NCBI GenBank assembly: GCA_017617235.1
Contig: JAFZWQ010000050.1
Coordinates: 1-45,188 of the forward strand
Reading direction: 5' to 3'
DNA length: 45,188 nucleotides
From: Bacteroidaceae bacterium
GTDB taxonomy: Bacteria > Bacteroidota > Bacteroidia > Bacteroidales > Bacteroidaceae
The translations under genes were made by a program, and so were the position numbers. The notes under the pieces are model-generated. The model saw nothing but the letters and a program-made list of their open reading frames with translations, did not search any database and had not been told where the DNA came from. Within the stretch, counting starts at the first letter, position 1, and the number at the start of each line of letters is the position of its first letter. Positions 24,030 to 31,028 of this stretch are shown piece after piece.

Positions 24030-25628
24030 ATGAAAGCAAGAATAACATTATGGATGGTGGGTCTGTTGCTGTGTGCAACAAGTGCTTGGACTCAGGTGAA
24101 CATCATTCCCAAACCAACCTCGCTGATTGTACGCGAGGGGGTATTTCCCTTGAAGGACGGGCTTACCATCGGCTGCAATGATGCCTCGCTGGCTCCTGCC
24201 GCCCAGTATCTGCAGGAGATGCTGACGACGGTCACGGGCCTGACTATTAAGACAGGCAAGAAGGGAAAGATACAGTTGATGCTTGTCGACCCCAACGAGA
24301 ATGACGAGAGCTACGAGTTGGTAGCAGACAAATCGGGTGTCCTCATCACGGCCCCCAGTTATCGTGGCATCGTAAACGGCATTGCTACGCTACGCCAGTT
24401 GCTGCCTCCAGTCCTCTCCCAAGGTGGAGAGAGTGGTAAGGTTGCCATTCCTGCTGTGACTATTAAGGACTGTCCCAACTTTCATTGGCGCGGACTGATG
24501 CTCGACCCCGTGCGCCACTTCTTCTCCGTAGAGGAGACCAAGGCGCTACTCGACCAGATGGCGCTTTACAAGCTCAATAAATTTCACTGGCACCTTTCTG
24601 ACAACGAGGGTTTTCGCATGGAGGTGAAGGCCTATCCGGGTCTGACTTCCGATACCGTGGCATGGCGCCGCTTCAATTACCACGATCGCCAGTGCCTGGA
24701 ACGTGCCTCGAAGGAGAACAATCCTGCCATGCTCATCCCCTGGAAGTATTTCAAGGAGGTGGAGGGCTATGGAGAATTGTACGGCGGCTACTACACGCAG
24801 GACGATATTCGCGATGTGATAGCTTATGCAGCAGTTCGTGGCATCGACATCATTCCTGAAATTGACATGCCCGGCCACAATGGTGCTGCGTGCTACTGCT
24901 ACAAATGGCTCAGTTGCACCCAGAACGGCGTGGAGCCGCTCTGCCTGGGCAGACAATCGACCATAGAGTTTGCCGAGAAGGTATATGACGAGGTGTTCCA
25001 GCTCTTCCCTTACGAGTATGTGAGCATCGGAGGCGACGAGGTGAACCGTCGGAGATGGTCGGAGTGCAGCGAGTGCAAGAAGCGCATCGAGAGTGAGGGC
25101 TTGAAGGATGTCAATGAACTGCAGGCATGGTTTACCAAGCGGATGGAGAAGTACTTCAACGCCCACGGCAAGCGCATCCTCGGATGGGACGAGATATTGG
25201 AGGGCGGACTTTCCAAGACGGCTACCGTACATTGGTGGCGTGGCGATCATCCCGATGTGACCCAGAAATCTACCGCTATGGGCAACGAGGTTGTGCTCTG
25301 CCCCTTTACCTTCCTGTATTTCGACTATGCTCAGGACGACAATACCCTGCGCCATATCTACGACGGCGACATTGTGCCCGTTGACCTCACAGCCGAGCAA
25401 TTGAAACTCATCAAGGGCATGCAAGGCAACATTTGGTGCGAGCGCATCCCTACTGAGGCTCGACTGCAGTGGATGGTATTTCCACGTGCCTTGGCACTAG
25501 CAGAGAAAGCATGGACACCTCGCAAGGACCAGCAGTGGGATGACTTCCTTCCCCGCCTGCAGGCACACCTCAAGCGCCTTGATGCAATGGGTATTCAGTA
25601 CCGTCCCTTGCAGACAAAAAGACCTTAA
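24030..25628 (+). CDS. GH20 beta-N-acetylhexosaminidase
   Basis: Exported beta-hexosaminidase removing terminal GlcNAc/GalNAc from host glycans, glycosaminoglycans or chitin-type oligomers by substrate-assisted catalysis. The 532-residue product has a signal peptide ending SAWTQ, the small N-terminal GH20b domain (about 22-140, VNIIPKPTSLIVREGVFPL) and the catalytic barrel (about 148-500) with FHWRGLMLDPVRHFF, KFHWHLSDNEGFRMEV and the catalytic Asp-Glu pair in VSIGGDEVNRRRW (about residues 334-339). Residues about 131-137 (LSQGGES) are encoded by a short palindrome resembling the GC-rich repeats. It has its own promoter and is followed within 24 bases by an orphan secreted protein. Confidence 0.93.
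   Translation: MKARITLWMVGLLLCATSAWTQVNIIPKPTSLIVREGVFPLKDGLTIGCNDASLAPAAQYLQEMLTTVTGLTIKTGKKGKIQLMLVDPNENDESYELVADKSGVLITAPSYRGIVNGIATLRQLLPPVLSQGGESGKVAIPAVTIKDCPNFHWRGLMLDPVRHFFSVEETKALLDQMALYKLNKFHWHLSDNEGFRMEVKAYPGLTSDTVAWRRFNYHDRQCLERASKENNPAMLIPWKYFKEVEGYGELYGGYYTQDDIRDVIAYAAVRGIDIIPEIDMPGHNGAACYCYKWLSCTQNGVEPLCLGRQSTIEFAEKVYDEVFQLFPYEYVSIGGDEVNRRRWSECSECKKRIESEGLKDVNELQAWFTKRMEKYFNAHGKRILGWDEILEGGLSKTATVHWWRGDHPDVTQKSTAMGNEVVLCPFTFLYFDYAQDDNTLRHIYDGDIVPVDLTAEQLKLIKGMQGNIWCERIPTEARLQWMVFPRALALAEKAWTPRKDQQWDDFLPRLQAHLKRLDAMGIQYRPLQTKRP
24412..24436 (+). repeat. Possible short palindromic repeat in the GH20 gene
   Basis: CTCTCC-CAAGGT-GGAGAG with a following AGTGG resembles the stem of the GC-rich element. 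It sits in frame at a domain boundary (LSQGGESGK). The match is short, so it may be coincidental. Confidence 0.35.
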
Positions 25629-25652: not shown

Positions 25653-26726
25653 ATGAAGAAGATACTTGTGGCCGCAGTTGCCTTAATCTGCATAACGACG
25701 AATGTTGTTGCACAACAGAAGACAAGTGTGTTTAAACAAAAGGGTGACCAATTGATAAAAGCCGCTGATGCCGACCCGCAGAACTGGCGTAAGCAGTACG
25801 ACGCCGGAGATTTCTTTATTTCGATAGATGATACGGTACAAAGTGCGAAGTACGCACAACGTGCTTTTGAAATCGCACAGAAGATGCAGGCCAAGAAAGA
25901 TACCATCATGCCCAAGACTCTGGAACTGTTGGCCGGAGTTTTTATGAAGAAGAACGACTATGAGCGGGCAATCTTTCACTTGGATATGGCCATTCGTGCT
26001 TATGTCGAGGAATTCGGATATCAGAACAAACTGATTCCGCCAGCCATTGCCAATGTTGGTTGTATGAGGTATTTGACGTACATGATGAGGCTTTATCCCT
26101 ATGGTGACGTTGATGCCTTGAAAAACCTGCGCGAGGCAAACATCCTGAACAGTCAACTGCCTGAGGGGCAACGTGCCATTGGCTTAGAGGAATCCGAAAC
26201 CATAGCAGCCCTCGCCAGCGAAAATCTACTGGGGGAGCATCGGAACAGGATGAAGGACAAGGTTTGGAAGTGGACGAACCATGTTGATGGCAAAACCTAT
26301 ACGATTCTGGCCTTCAACAACTGGACACTGGAGCAACCTGAGGGTTTTATCGCTGAATTATTGAAGGTGCAAAATGACGAAAATGCTGCGGAGAACATGA
26401 AACACGGGCTGATTCTGATGGACGAACAGGGCAAAGTGATAGAACAGATACATGGAGAATTTACTTGGAATGTGTGGTGGAATGTCCTAAAGGAAAAATT
26501 CACCCTTAACGAAAACAGCACCCTCCGTCTTGCTACCGTCACTCCCGAACAACGTCAGCAAATGATAGATGCCCTGAACGGACGACGCCAACAAATCATG
26601 GACAACTTCAAGAAGAGGTTGGAAGAACCAAAGACGCCCTCGTCGATGAGTATCTCACCGGGTGCATTAAACATCAACAAATCCTTAAATAATAACAAGA
26701 GCCTTCAATTCCGATTTAAGCCCTAA
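25653..26726 (+). CDS. Secreted protein of unknown function, helical/TPR-like
   Basis: I do not recognise a named family. The 357-residue product has a signal peptide (MKKILVAAVALICITTNVVAQ). Residues about 30-170 are helical with spacing reminiscent of tetratricopeptide repeats (QNWRKQYDAGDFFISID, ALKNLREANI), the middle (about 200-300) is mixed with many Trp (KVWKWTNHV, FTWNVWWNVL), and the C-terminus is Asn/Ser rich (NINKSLNNNKSLQFRFKP). The ATG at 25653 is chosen over the TTG at 25629, which would put eight residues before the signal peptide. It follows the GH20 gene by 24 bases and is probably cotranscribed; no functional link is evident. Confidence 0.75.
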   Translation: MKKILVAAVALICITTNVVAQQKTSVFKQKGDQLIKAADADPQNWRKQYDAGDFFISIDDTVQSAKYAQRAFEIAQKMQAKKDTIMPKTLELLAGVFMKKNDYERAIFHLDMAIRAYVEEFGYQNKLIPPAIANVGCMRYLTYMMRLYPYGDVDALKNLREANILNSQLPEGQRAIGLEESETIAALASENLLGEHRNRMKDKVWKWTNHVDGKTYTILAFNNWTLEQPEGFIAELLKVQNDENAAENMKHGLILMDEQGKVIEQIHGEFTWNVWWNVLKEKFTLNENSTLRLATVTPEQRQQMIDALNGRRQQIMDNFKKRLEEPKTPSSMSISPGALNINKSLNNNKSLQFRFKP

Positions 26727-26779
26727 TTCGTGAATTTTGTCCTTCCCAAAGGTGCGTGGCATAAAAAATGGAGCAAGAA

Positions 26780-26811
26780 TTTCCGAGTTTTAATTAATTT
26801 AGTTAACTTTG
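26780..26811 (+). promoter_or_regulatory. Promoter of the corA leader transcript
   Basis: TTTC (26780-26783, 3 of 4), 20 bases, TAACTTTG (26804-26811, full -7 match). Transcription would begin near 26818, giving a leader of about 140 nt before corA. Confidence 0.68.
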
Positions 26812-26848
26812 CGCTGATTTTAACAAATAACCCTAATTAATAACCACT

Positions 26849-26890
26849 ATGGACGACTATCCGGCGGAGAATGATAAACGCTTAGGGTAG
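26849..26890 (+). CDS. Putative 13-residue leader peptide upstream of corA
   Basis: Open frame ATG to TAG encoding MDDYPAENDKRLG. Its first codons are acidic with an early proline (D, D, Y, P, then A, E, N, D), the type of N-terminus that destabilises translating ribosomes when Mg2+ is low; this principle is known from the proline/acidic leader peptide of enterobacterial mgtA, and Salmonella corA also has a short leader ORF (corL). The stop codon lies inside the first arm of a predicted hairpin (26889-26915), and the alternative partner of that hairpin pairs with the corA Shine-Dalgarno sequence. Whether it is translated is not shown by the sequence alone. Confidence 0.5.
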   Translation: MDDYPAENDKRLG

Positions 26891-26950
26891 GGTGGCGAAG
26901 AGGCCGCTCTCCCTTGAAATTCATTTCTCTCATACAAACATTCAAGGAGG
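26889..26950 (+). promoter_or_regulatory. Mutually exclusive hairpins controlling the corA ribosome binding site
   Basis: Segment 1 (26889-26897, AGGGTGGCG) overlaps the leader stop codon and can pair with segment 2 (26905-26914, CCGCTCTCCCT region) with one mismatch and one bulge. Segment 2 together with the next bases (26908-26918, TCTCCCTTGAA) can instead pair with segment 3 (26941-26950, TTCAAGGAGG) in about 10 bp with one bulge. Segment 3 holds AAGGAGG, the only strong Shine-Dalgarno sequence I noticed in the window, 8 bases before the corA ATG. Confidence 0.5.
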
Positions 26951-26958
26951 AAAGGCCA

Positions 26959-27885
26959 ATGCTAACATTCTGGAACACCAATCGTGGTCTGCGCACCATC
27001 GAACAATGGGAACCTAATTGCTGGGTTCAGGTGACTTGTCCCTCACAGGACGATGTAAATTTCCTGCAAAACACACTACACGTGCCCGATTACTACATTT
27101 CGGACATCGCGGATACCGACGAGCGTGCCCGTTACGACATCGACGAGGGCTGGGTGCTCATCATTCTGCGTATCCCATACGTCAAGGAAGTAAAATCGCG
27201 CACACCGTACACCACCATCCCTCTGGGTATCATACTGAAGGGCGATGTTTGCATCACGCTGTGCAACTTCGAGACAAACATGATGATAGACTTCGTTACC
27301 TATCAACAGCGGCGAGGTCTGGGCTTCACGGACTCGGTGGATATGGTGTTCCGCCTGTTCCTGTCAAGTGCTGTGTGGTATCTGAAGCGACTGAAACAGA
27401 TTTCGGCCCGCATAGAGCAAGCCAAACTGAATCTGGACCGCAATGTCGATAATGTGGACCTCATCGCCCTTAGTCGTCTGCAGGACAGCCTGACGTACTT
27501 CATCACCTCTATTCGTGGCAACGAGAACCTGCTGTCGAAACTGAAGTTCAAACTGCCCGTCGACGAGTTGGATGCCGATATGATTGAAGACGTAAACATC
27601 GAGATGAGTCAGGCCCGTGAAACGACTAGCATCTACGCCAATATTCTGGAGTCGACAATGGAGACCTATGCCAACATCATCAACAACAATATGTCGAAGG
27701 TGATGAAGATGCTGACCAGCATTTCCATTATCCTGATGTTCCCCACGCTCATTGCCAGTTTGTTCGGCATGAACCTGATAAACGGTATGGAGGCGTGGGC
27801 ATGGGGCTTCCCCATCGCACTGGTACTGTGCGTAGTTACCACTGTCCTGTTCTTCTGGTACTTCAAACGTAAATCTTGGTTCTAA
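26959..27885 (+). CDS. corA: CorA family Mg2+/Co2+ transporter
   Basis: Inner-membrane divalent cation channel/transporter, normally the main Mg2+ uptake route. The 308-residue product has a cytoplasmic N-terminal alpha/beta funnel (about 1-160), the long stalk helix with KQISARIEQAKLNLDRNVDN, and two C-terminal transmembrane helices with the signature GMN between pore helix and loop (LFGMNLINGMEAW, about 268-280), ending in a basic tail KRKSWF. The start is fixed at 26959 by AAGGAGG at 26944-26950; a longer frame from TTG 26914 runs through the leader hairpin and is rejected. It is preceded by a ~140-nt leader with a short ORF and followed after 24 bases by a membrane protein gene likely on the same transcript. 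Confidence 0.93.
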   Translation: MLTFWNTNRGLRTIEQWEPNCWVQVTCPSQDDVNFLQNTLHVPDYYISDIADTDERARYDIDEGWVLIILRIPYVKEVKSRTPYTTIPLGIILKGDVCITLCNFETNMMIDFVTYQQRRGLGFTDSVDMVFRLFLSSAVWYLKRLKQISARIEQAKLNLDRNVDNVDLIALSRLQDSLTYFITSIRGNENLLSKLKFKLPVDELDADMIEDVNIEMSQARETTSIYANILESTMETYANIINNNMSKVMKMLTSISIILMFPTLIASLFGMNLINGMEAWAWGFPIALVLCVVTTVLFFWYFKRKSWF

Positions 27886-27909: not shown

Positions 27910-28938
27910 ATGAAAAAGATGTTCGCAATGCTGACGACGCTGCTGACCACGATGGGTCTGTGGGCGCAAGAGGTGGCAGAAGAAGTAACGGATACTATAC
28001 CGCAGAAGGCCGAAGACCTGAACCAATTTATGTCTGTAGCGACTAAGTTCGGCTCGGGTTTCATGAGTGTTCACCACTGGTGCACGGAAAACCTGACGGG
28101 ATTCTATCACACGCTGTGGCCCTATCTGTTTATTGCCATCGTCTCGATTCTGACCATTCCATCGTTCTGGTGGGCCGATGAGGAGAAAGGCTGGGGTGTA
28201 AAGCTGGTGCGTGCCTTATTCGTATTGTTCCCTCTGGCCATGCTGCTGGAGTTGGGCGCGCTGATGACGTTAGGCTTCTATGGCAGTATCTGGTGGTGCA
28301 ATCCTGATAAAATAGGCCTGTTAACTGCTGTTTTCCGCGTAAGTCTGTTGCTGATATTCCTGCTGTTGCAGATTGTGGCCATGTTCATCTTTACTGTCTA
28401 TATGCCTAAGCAGTTGGGCGCAGTAGAGGATGAAGACGACGAAAACGTGCCTACATTCCATATGCTTACGGCATTTCTGAGCATCATAGCCATCTATCCC
28501 CTGTTCTGGTTGGGTGGATTTGCTGTGGCCATGTTTGGTTTATCGGGAACGGTGGGCAGTCTGATTGAATGGGGCTTGCCTCTGTTGGGATTGCTGTCGT
28601 TGCTGTACAAGAATATACGCACATTTGGTCCGCTTCGTGGATTCGTAGGTGCTGCATTGAGCCTGATAATCGTGTTGGGATTCCTCGGTGGATTGGGCAT
28701 TTTCTTCATCACGGTGCTGAAATTGTTCCTCTCTTTCATTCTGGCTTGTCCATTGGTTATCGTATTCATCGTGATGGGTTCGGCAACGTTCAAGGATATG
28801 AAGTACATATACAGCAACGGCGATGTCGAGATTCACAGCGTCTTTGCTGGTTTCCAGCGACTGCCTTGGCAGGCCTATGTATTGCTGACGTTGTTGGGCG
28901 TTATCGTATCCCTATCCTTGGGTTGGAGCCTGAAATAG
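27910..28938 (+). CDS. Polytopic membrane protein of unknown function next to corA
   Basis: I do not recognise a family. The 342-residue product starts with a signal-peptide-like segment (MKKMFAMLTTLLTTMGLWAQ), an acidic exported stretch (EVAEEVTDTIPQKAEDL) and then about seven hydrophobic helices: near 70-85, 97-117, 130-155, 180-215, 220-240, 245-290 (two) and 320-340. A very acidic loop (AVEDEDDENVP, about 172-182) sits between helices. It begins 24 bases after corA with no promoter, so it should share the corA leader control. A part in divalent-cation or envelope homeostasis is possible from context only. It is followed by 131 bases with a weak promoter for the next gene. Confidence 0.75.
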   Translation: MKKMFAMLTTLLTTMGLWAQEVAEEVTDTIPQKAEDLNQFMSVATKFGSGFMSVHHWCTENLTGFYHTLWPYLFIAIVSILTIPSFWWADEEKGWGVKLVRALFVLFPLAMLLELGALMTLGFYGSIWWCNPDKIGLLTAVFRVSLLLIFLLLQIVAMFIFTVYMPKQLGAVEDEDDENVPTFHMLTAFLSIIAIYPLFWLGGFAVAMFGLSGTVGSLIEWGLPLLGLLSLLYKNIRTFGPLRGFVGAALSLIIVLGFLGGLGIFFITVLKLFLSFILACPLVIVFIVMGSATFKDMKYIYSNGDVEIHSVFAGFQRLPWQAYVLLTLLGVIVSLSLGWSLK

Positions 28939-29069: not shown

Positions 29070-31028
29070 ATGATGGACTCTTTAGATCAGACCAAAGTGA
29101 ATGAGGCCGCCGAGGAAGTAGTTCCTGTGGAGACCGTAGAAACCGTGAATGAAACCGTTGAAGTTCCTGTAGTTGAGGCAGAAGCCCCCATAGTAGAGGA
29201 AACTCCCGAAGTAGTGGAGGAAGCTCCCGCAGAAGAAACCCCTGCAGAGGAAGTTCCCGTTGTTGAAGATGCACCTGTTGCCGAAGAAACTCCAGAGGCG
29301 GAGCCGCAGATCCCCCTGATGAAGACAAAGGAGGAAGTATTGGCCCGTGCGCAGGAAATTGCCGCACAGGGTGATGGAGGCAACAAGCAGGAATTGGAAT
29401 TACTGAAACAACTTTATTATAAATATCACAAGGCGGAAATCCTGGCTGCCCAGCAGGCTTTTGTTGATGCTGGTGGAGATCCCGAGACATATCAGCCCGA
29501 ACTCGATCCCACAGAAGAACCTTTCAAGGAAGCTATGCAGCAGATTCGCCAAAGCCGTGCTCAGCTCATGGCTGAACAGGAGCAGCAGCGTGCCGAGAAC
29601 CTGGCCAAGAAGCAGGCCGTAATCGAAAAGATTAAGCTGCTGGCAACCACCCCCGAGGAGGCCGGAAAGTCGTACGATGCCTTCAAGGAACTGCAGGCCG
29701 AATGGCGCGAAATAGGTCCTGTGCCTGCTGAACATGTATCGGAAATCTGGAAGAACTATCAGTTGTATGTAGAGCAGTTCTACGATATGCTGAAGCTGAA
29801 CATTCAGTTCCGCGAATATGACTTCCGCAAGAATCTGGAGGCAAAGACGCTGTTGTGCGAACAGGCCGAGAAACTTGCAGAGGAGAAGGATGTGGTGACG
29901 GCCATCAACCGCCTGCAGACCTTGCACCAGGAATGGAAGGAGATTGGCCCCGTAGCCAAAGACCTGCGCGAAGAGATATGGAACCGTTTCAAAGAGGCCA
30001 GCACCGTTATCCGCAAGCGTCATCAGGATTTCTTCGTGGCTCGCAAGGCTCAGGAAGAAGAAAATCTGCAGAAGAAGACGGAGTTGTGCGAACAGGTTGA
30101 GGCTATTCCTACGGATGGGCTGAAAACTTTTGCCGACTGGGATGCCAAGACAAAGGAAATCATCGATCTGCAGGCCGTTTGGAAGACCATCGGCTTTGCC
30201 CCGCAGAAGGTGAATACCCAGATATTCGAACGTTTCCGTGCAGCTTGCGACAAGTTCTTTGCCGAGAAGGCAGCCTATTTTAAGTCCGTCAAGGAGGAAC
30301 TGAACCAGAATCTGCAGAAGAAAAAGGAACTGGTAGAAAAGGCCGAGGCCCTGAAGGACAGTACGGAATGGAAGCAGACAAGCGATGCCTTGATAGAATT
30401 GCAGAAGCAGTGGAAGACCATCGGTGCCGTTCCCCGCAAGGTGAGCGATGAACTGTGGAAGCGTTTCGTGGGTGCCTGCGACCACTTCTTCGAGGCCAAG
30501 GGTGCTGCCACAGCCGAAGAACGCGGCGAACAGCAGGAGAACCTGAAGAAAAAGCAAGATATTATTGCCCGCCTGAAGGGATTGTTGGAAGATGCTGCCG
30601 AGGCCACCGGCCAGAAGGTTCGTGAATTACAGCAGGAATGGAACGAAGTAGGCTTTGTGCCCATCCGCGATAAGGATAAGATTTACAAGCAGTACCGCGA
30701 AGTGGTGGACGAATTGTACAAGAAACTGAACCTGAGTCAGGCCGAGCGTCGACTGAACAGTTTCAAGACCACCCTGAAGGTAAGTGCCGAGGCAGGTGCC
30801 AATACGTTGGCTCGCGAACGCGACCGACTGGCTCGTGCTTACGAAATCATGAAGGGCGAATTGCAGACCTATGAGAATAACATCGGCTTCCTTTCTGCCA
30901 GCAGCAAGACGGGTAATTCCTTGGTTCAGGAAATCCAGAAGAAGGTGGATAAGCTGAAAGATGAGCTGGAACTCTTGAAGCAGAAGATAAAGGCAGTAGA
31001 ATCAGAAATGAAAAAGTCGCTCGATTGA
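29070..31028 (+). CDS. DUF349 repeat protein
   Basis: A 652-residue, highly charged, mostly helical cytoplasmic protein with five DUF349 repeats. The repeat signature (Q-x-x-W-x-x-I/V-G-x-V/A-P) is visible as LQAEWREIGPVP, LHQEWKEIGPVA, LQAVWKTIGFAP, LQKQWKTIGAVP and LQQEWNEVGFVP, spread over about residues 200-560. DUF349 proteins are universal in Bacteroidetes but their function is not established. The first ~75 residues form an acidic low-complexity tail of V/E/P/A motifs (VEEAPAEETPAEEVPVVEDA), and the last ~60 residues are a coiled coil. Two ATGs overlap at 29070 and 29073. The last codons form one arm of a terminator that also serves the opposite tRNA gene. Confidence 0.9.
   Translation: MMDSLDQTKVNEAAEEVVPVETVETVNETVEVPVVEAEAPIVEETPEVVEEAPAEETPAEEVPVVEDAPVAEETPEAEPQIPLMKTKEEVLARAQEIAAQGDGGNKQELELLKQLYYKYHKAEILAAQQAFVDAGGDPETYQPELDPTEEPFKEAMQQIRQSRAQLMAEQEQQRAENLAKKQAVIEKIKLLATTPEEAGKSYDAFKELQAEWREIGPVPAEHVSEIWKNYQLYVEQFYDMLKLNIQFREYDFRKNLEAKTLLCEQAEKLAEEKDVVTAINRLQTLHQEWKEIGPVAKDLREEIWNRFKEASTVIRKRHQDFFVARKAQEEENLQKKTELCEQVEAIPTDGLKTFADWDAKTKEIIDLQAVWKTIGFAPQKVNTQIFERFRAACDKFFAEKAAYFKSVKEELNQNLQKKKELVEKAEALKDSTEWKQTSDALIELQKQWKTIGAVPRKVSDELWKRFVGACDHFFEAKGAATAEERGEQQENLKKKQDIIARLKGLLEDAAEATGQKVRELQQEWNEVGFVPIRDKDKIYKQYREVVDELYKKLNLSQAERRLNSFKTTLKVSAEAGANTLARERDRLARAYEIMKGELQTYENNIGFLSASSKTGNSLVQEIQKKVDKLKDELELLKQKIKAVESEMKKSLD

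Follow-up and report, generated by a model that had tools for sequence, protein, structure and literature searches.

An acidic leader peptide gene ahead of corA in rumen, gut and related Bacteroidales appears to be a ribosome-driven switch

The window analysed here is a stretch of 45,188 nucleotides from the genome of a Bacteroidaceae bacterium. It carries a corA gene whose leader, lying between an upstream ORF and corA, contains a short upstream open reading frame (uORF) and three segments that are predicted to form two alternative stems. The features of the locus are as follows.

24030-25628: GH20 beta-hexosaminidase (Pfam), a neighbour of the leader
25653-26726: ORF without Pfam match, the upstream neighbour
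26804-26811, + strand: Bacteroides-type -7 box TAACTTTG (TAnnTTTG), by sequence match
26849-26890, + strand: 13-codon leader ORF MDDYPAENDKRLG with TAG stop (26888-26890), the proposed sensor
26884-26896, + strand: segment 1, overlapping the uORF stop, pairs with 26903-26914
26902-26918, + strand: segment 2, common to both alternative stems by pairing
26941-26957, + strand: segment 3, with the corA Shine-Dalgarno AAGGAGG (26944-26950), pairs with 26902-26918
26959-27885, + strand: corA, CorA-family divalent cation channel of 308 aa (PF01544, E 2.4e-47)
27910-28938: ORF without Pfam match, downstream of corA
29070-31028: DUF349 repeat protein (Pfam), a neighbour

The uORF begins 37 nt past the -7 box and 110 nt ahead of corA, which starts with an ATG at 26959; at E <= 0.001 the source genome (85.5% complete) has no second PF01544 match. 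The -33 element is imperfect, matching at three of four positions (TTTC at 26780-26783). Among 66 representatives of the leader clusters described below, 48 have TAnnTTTG at most 60 nt upstream of the uORF (shuffled mean 1.9, maximum 7). The strict uORF motif occurs only once in the source genome. In the predicted stem 1:2, bases 26884-26887 and 26889-26896 pair with 26903-26914; in the predicted stem 2:3, 26902-26905 pair with 26954-26957, 26908-26910 with 26949-26951 and 26912-26918 with 26941-26947. The folding energy of the leader is ordinary (z -1.28). A first-pass annotation of this DNA had proposed the -7 box, the 13-codon ORF with its stop overlapping segment 1, and the two pairings that share segment 2; the box and the ORF are confirmed in the sequence and both pairings are predicted where it had placed them. 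Its remark that AAGGAGG is the sole strong Shine-Dalgarno sequence does not hold, as the window contains 12 matches (4.85 expected) when these are counted regardless of gene starts.

The corA upstream regions of related genomes were picked by CorA protein homology alone and not by the uORF motif. At the genus level, 127 of 139 genomes have a CorA homology match, and the uORF is present in all 30 of the best loci, the window's included. At the family level a match was found in 154 of 201 genomes; 59 regions were examined, 8 of them again from the genus, and 50 carry a short uORF that starts with MDD. Together, the short MDD uORF precedes corA in 80 of 89 homology-chosen regions and is absent from nine (L194, L204, L205, L206, L214 and L216-L219). 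There were 39 loci without a computed CorA start: 21 were pattern-chosen (rsmA type, cut contigs and chance hits) and were excluded, and the other 18, homology-chosen, were placed by hand, 11 with the uORF and 7 without. L205 and L217-L219 belong to one genus, with corA leaders that lack the MDD uORF; in L205 and L218 a basic start, MLRGKRD, stands at -91 in its place. L194 is the second corA copy of its genome, with a leader from which uORF codons 1 and 2 are missing. L005/L106 has two uORF copies 76 nt apart, and the spacers of L005, L007 and L014 contain ATTGGACAATT-like repeats.

Across the order, a CorA match was found in 94 of 124 genomes, and 30 loci were examined: the window's own and 29 more, no two of them from one family; CorA matches beyond these 30 are far weaker (E 1e-21). 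A short ORF starting with MDD, MDE or MDG lies at most 260 nt upstream in 23 of the 29 families (shuffled 0.34, maximum 5), and L310, L314, L315, L328, L329 and L332 are without one. In the phylum, the uORF occurs in 7 of 28 homology-chosen corA regions (shuffled 0.30, maximum 2). These carriers all come from one genus (7 of 7 genomes), presumably of the Flavobacteriaceae, in another order of the same class; in the rest of that family, only distant CorA paralogues were matched. L358, in which no ATG was found, is excluded from the order and phylum counts. A motif scan of named genomes, covering at least 120 loci, found the uORF ahead of corA in Prevotella, Hallella, Hoylesella, Paraprevotella (P. 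xylaniphila being a named carrier) and others. Among the matches listed for these named loci, there are 99 leader instances and four MDD ORFs of 7-20 codons that are not leaders, over 1529 kb-strand; being motif-chosen, the named loci were kept out of the uORF rates. Absence of conservation in relatives, the outcome that the first-pass annotation had named as speaking against its reading, did not occur at either the family or the order level. To judge from these comparisons of sequence, the leader ORF is real, conserved and far older than the source genome.

Conservation is concentrated at the beginning of the uORF. All 80 family-level uORFs encode Asp2-Asp3. In the 66 representatives the share of acidic residues falls from 41% over codons 2-8 to 6.5% beyond them; order-wide the values are 35% and 6%, and 17 of the 29 order-wide leaders have Pro within codons 2-8. 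The family uses GAC or GAT at codon 3, to which the order adds GAA, GAG and in one case GGT; position 7 uses GAA, GAG and GAT, and the frame is kept although uORFs differ in their 3' half and in length (8 to 31 codons). The D/E swaps, the early acidic enrichment and the variable 3' half look like selection on an early acidic peptide. The conserved C-terminal residues that are the signature of an arrest peptide are not seen in these uORFs, in which the N-terminus is conserved and the C-terminus variable. Codon 2 (26852-26854 in the window) is GAC in 80 of 80 family-level and 27 of 29 order-wide uORFs, 107 of 109 in total. At codon 6 (26864-26866), 76 of 80 have NCG although the encoded residue differs between them; order-wide only 10 of 29 do. 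Judging by these counts, GAC at codon 2 and NCG at codon 6 are more fixed than the peptide alone requires. In the long ORFs of the window (called mechanically on both strands), no Ala codon is rarer than GCG and no Pro codon rarer than CCG, and our guess would be that a slow codon is placed at the point of ribosome drop-off.

With a ribosome placed on the uORF, we computed how much energy it takes to open the corA start region (-16 to +3) in 165 unique leaders with spacers of 45-150 nt, chosen partly by motif and partly by homology, and in 20 sets whose spacers had been dinucleotide-shuffled. The difference between a ribosome at the stop and one at codon 6 is +3.05 kcal/mol, against -0.19 in the shuffles (-0.43 to +0.05). 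Average linkage was used in place of single linkage, which at 60% identity lumped 163 of the 165 leaders together, and its three thresholds gave cluster means of +3.62 (94 clusters), +3.91 (66) and +3.59 (31). At 65% identity, 53 of the 66 clusters lie above +0.5 (26% in the shuffles) and 7 below -0.5 (36% in the shuffles). As long as the P site is on any of codons 1-7 the opening cost stays at 6.1-6.7 kcal/mol, and it is 10.3 at the last sense codon, so that the rise falls just after the conserved acidic stretch. A second set of 29 leaders, 22 from other families of the order and 7 from the second order, gave +4.93 kcal/mol (shuffles -0.37), with 24 above +0.5 and 2 below -0.5; it left out L304, the same gene as L160, and L333, the window. 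Because some uORFs have 8 codons, the reference ribosome in this set stood at codon 2 instead of codon 6.

For the window itself the difference is +7.15 kcal/mol, a value reached by one of 600 shuffles (mean -0.46, SD 2.41). The layout and the sign of the switch in the first-pass annotation, with the corA start closed when the uORF is read to its stop, are supported by the window and by both sets of leaders. Its further claim, that the Shine-Dalgarno sequence is free when stem 1:2 forms, stands in part. Opening the Shine-Dalgarno of the window takes 2.7 kcal/mol in the free RNA and 4.7 with the ribosome at codon 6 versus 11.4 at the stop, but with segment 1 free the best fold still pairs it weakly with UUUCUCU at 26924-26930. 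In the 165 leaders with segment 1 free, the start region opens at 6.62 kcal/mol versus 6.05 in the shuffles; it is no easier to open than shuffled sequence, which indicates that the switch adds closure and not unusual openness. Among the 7 clusters of opposite sign are a 19-leader rumen clade (L019 and kin, -0.81), a 5-leader clade (-0.67) and L007/L014 (-3.23). In the L019-L031 rumen clade, which is without the predicted switch, 9 of the 11 loci scanned have a tRNA-Gln gene ahead of the corA leader. Compensatory changes, proposed earlier as a check on the stems, were looked for in the ten closest leaders. The pairings are kept, with stem 1:2 paired in 96.7% of cells and stem 2:3 in 89.2%, but all changes are one-sided, and for stem 2:3 a slid control had more two-sided changes.

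From its conservation we infer that the uORF is translated, with ribosomes initiating at 26849. A ribosome that reaches the stop at 26888 would cover segment 1, and segment 2 would then pair with segment 3, hiding the corA Shine-Dalgarno sequence so that little CorA would be made. Fall-off in the acidic first codons (MDDYPAE), or failure to start, would let stem 1:2 form and make the corA start easier to open; this step and the one before it have computational support in many genomes. Low cytosolic Mg2+ would favour fall-off by intrinsic ribosome destabilization (IRD), and CorA would rise when Mg2+ is short. In enterobacteria, early acidic or Pro residues are described as causing the ribosome to fall off, more so at low Mg2+, which alters the leader RNA (PMC11282234, PMC9718836, PMC11552253, PMC8092293); IRD is described as being suppressed by Mg2+ and used by MgtL (PMC9718836, PMC11282234). 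The Mg2+ step is proposed because of the acidity of codons 2-8, the identity of the gene that follows and these precedents, and by analogy we infer that Mg2+ sensing through ribosome destabilization would be the likeliest signal. IRD was defined with long runs of acidic residues, and the uORF, with one DD and one acidic residue more, is a milder case. A ribosome-gated switch ahead of corA is supported by the fold models. The whole reading, in which a ribosome-read translational switch shuts corA upon full reading of the uORF and is opened by drop-off that low Mg2+ favours, we regard as fairly probable.

The fold test shows only that the position of the ribosome matters, and the same ribosome-gated switch might answer to a signal other than Mg2+, such as translation trouble, a factor of the ABC-F or EF-P type, or the charging or modification of the early-codon tRNAs. 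The uORF core is rich in Asp, Tyr, His and Asn, and the NCG at codon 6 in 76 of 80 leaders includes the rare GCG and CCG. However, only 10 of the 29 order-wide leaders retain NCG, and the downstream gene is a divalent-cation channel, so we give this alternative a minor chance. Sensing of queuosine-tRNA was rejected as a candidate signal, the excess of its residues D/N/H/Y beyond codon 8 being weak (25% versus 21% in CorA N-termini). Control of corA transcription by the uORF, through a terminator or Rho instead of start-site access, is how MgtL and CorL are described to act, through Rho (PMC11282234; PMC11552253), and T-rich stretches (6/8) occur in 33% of the spacers of 66 relatives as compared with 16% of shuffled ones. 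Against it, 26600-27100 of the window contains no terminator-like site (a GC stem followed by a U run) and the computed effect falls on the corA start region itself, and we think it improbable. A riboswitch, with an aptamer that includes part or all of the ATGGACGAYTAT..GCGGA motif and the ORF as a by-product, would suit the fixed GAC (107 of 109) and NCG (76 of 80) codons of homology-chosen leaders but is very improbable, as Rfam gave no match at gathering score in the window (26500-27200) or in 16 relatives, residue 3 shifts from Asp to Glu, position 7 varies between GAA, GAG and GAT, and the frame persists while length and 3' half change.

Beyond the translational switch that we prefer for the corA leaders, the same acidic start is found in other layouts. 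In family f42, which by its similarity to named loci is probably akin to the Paludibacteraceae, rsmA is followed by a CorA-like gene. A match was found in 54 of 61 genomes, and of the 30 loci examined (L274-L303), 27 have a GMN motif downstream and 17 have an out-of-frame uORF that overlaps the rsmA start and encodes DD in residues 2-7. The overlapping peptides include MDDYHAEN, MPDDYHQ, MSDDYHQ, MTDDYHS, MDDPAGK and others. L052, L070, L076, L103 and L158 have an acidic mini-ORF over the rsmA start of such an rsmA-corA operon too. Loci with rsmA ahead of mgtE were considered as carriers and rejected (0 of 14 with an overlapping acidic mini-ORF). In L161 (1501-1630), MDDYHAER opens a 41-codon ORF that ends just ahead of a CNNM/CorC gene (PF01595, PF03471); the corA region of that genome (L314) is without the uORF. 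CNNM/CorC was rejected as a regular carrier, with a single case among 12 genomes of that family. That different layouts share this acidic start speaks for the peptide, and not one RNA shape, as the sensor. It is conceivable, though we lean slightly against it, that the acidic mini-ORF is a portable, class-wide sensor of Mg2+ or ribosome stability with several outputs (the corA hairpin, the rsmA overlap and CNNM/CorC), distinct from that of enterobacteria. On this reading, a ribosome that does not abort at the rsmA overlap would block the 16S rRNA methyltransferase and CorA together.

Mg2+ control by ribosome drop-off from a leader ORF is, in the literature found, described for enterobacteria. 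The first-pass annotation knew of no such leader in Bacteroidetes, and in agreement with it, no description of such a corA leader in Bacteroidota was found in the main texts of the open-access literature searched. A transcriptome paper on B. thetaiotaomicron describes short ORFs in long 5' UTRs generally, its main text being without corA (PMC7366714), and the accessible text of a Flavobacterium psychrophilum paper describes leader-peptide attenuation for amino-acid operons, not corA (PMC9723704). If true, the present reading would add the Bacteroidales and some members of a second order, where the peptide is unrelated, the start site is locked directly and another layout lies over rsmA, and it would make ribosome stability look like a general gauge of cytosolic Mg2+. 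The leader offers genetic access to Mg2+ homeostasis in bacteria that dominate the gut and rumen, and the leaders are a natural peptide library in which to ask which early residues destabilise a non-enterobacterial ribosome.

The corA leader has features of IRD-type leader ORFs: it is a short ORF ahead of a Mg2+ transporter gene, its first codons encode acidic residues or Pro, and, by computation only, the extent of its translation selects between exclusive structures. Like MgtL of mgtA in E. coli and Salmonella, as described in PMC11282234, it is a short ORF in the leader of a Mg2+ transporter gene and has acidic or Pro residues near its start (EPDP in MgtL), and the same direction of control is proposed here, with full reading lowering the transporter and drop-off at low Mg2+ raising it. 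MgtL differs in its unrelated peptide and its Rho-dependent terminator, whereas the predicted output here is the corA start region. CorL of corA in E. coli and Salmonella is similar in that translation of the uORF is inverse to corA expression and two alternative structures are formed, but it is described as Rho-dependent and is gammaproteobacterial (PMC11552253). MgtQ of mgtB in Salmonella and others has 8 codons, with acidic codons 2 and 5, and acts at the translational level through alternative stems that hide or free the ribosome binding site of a Mg2+ transporter (PMC8092293). MgtQ lies between operon genes, however, and loss of its start codon is described as lowering mgtB (PMC8092293), whereas an untranslated uORF is predicted here to leave corA open.
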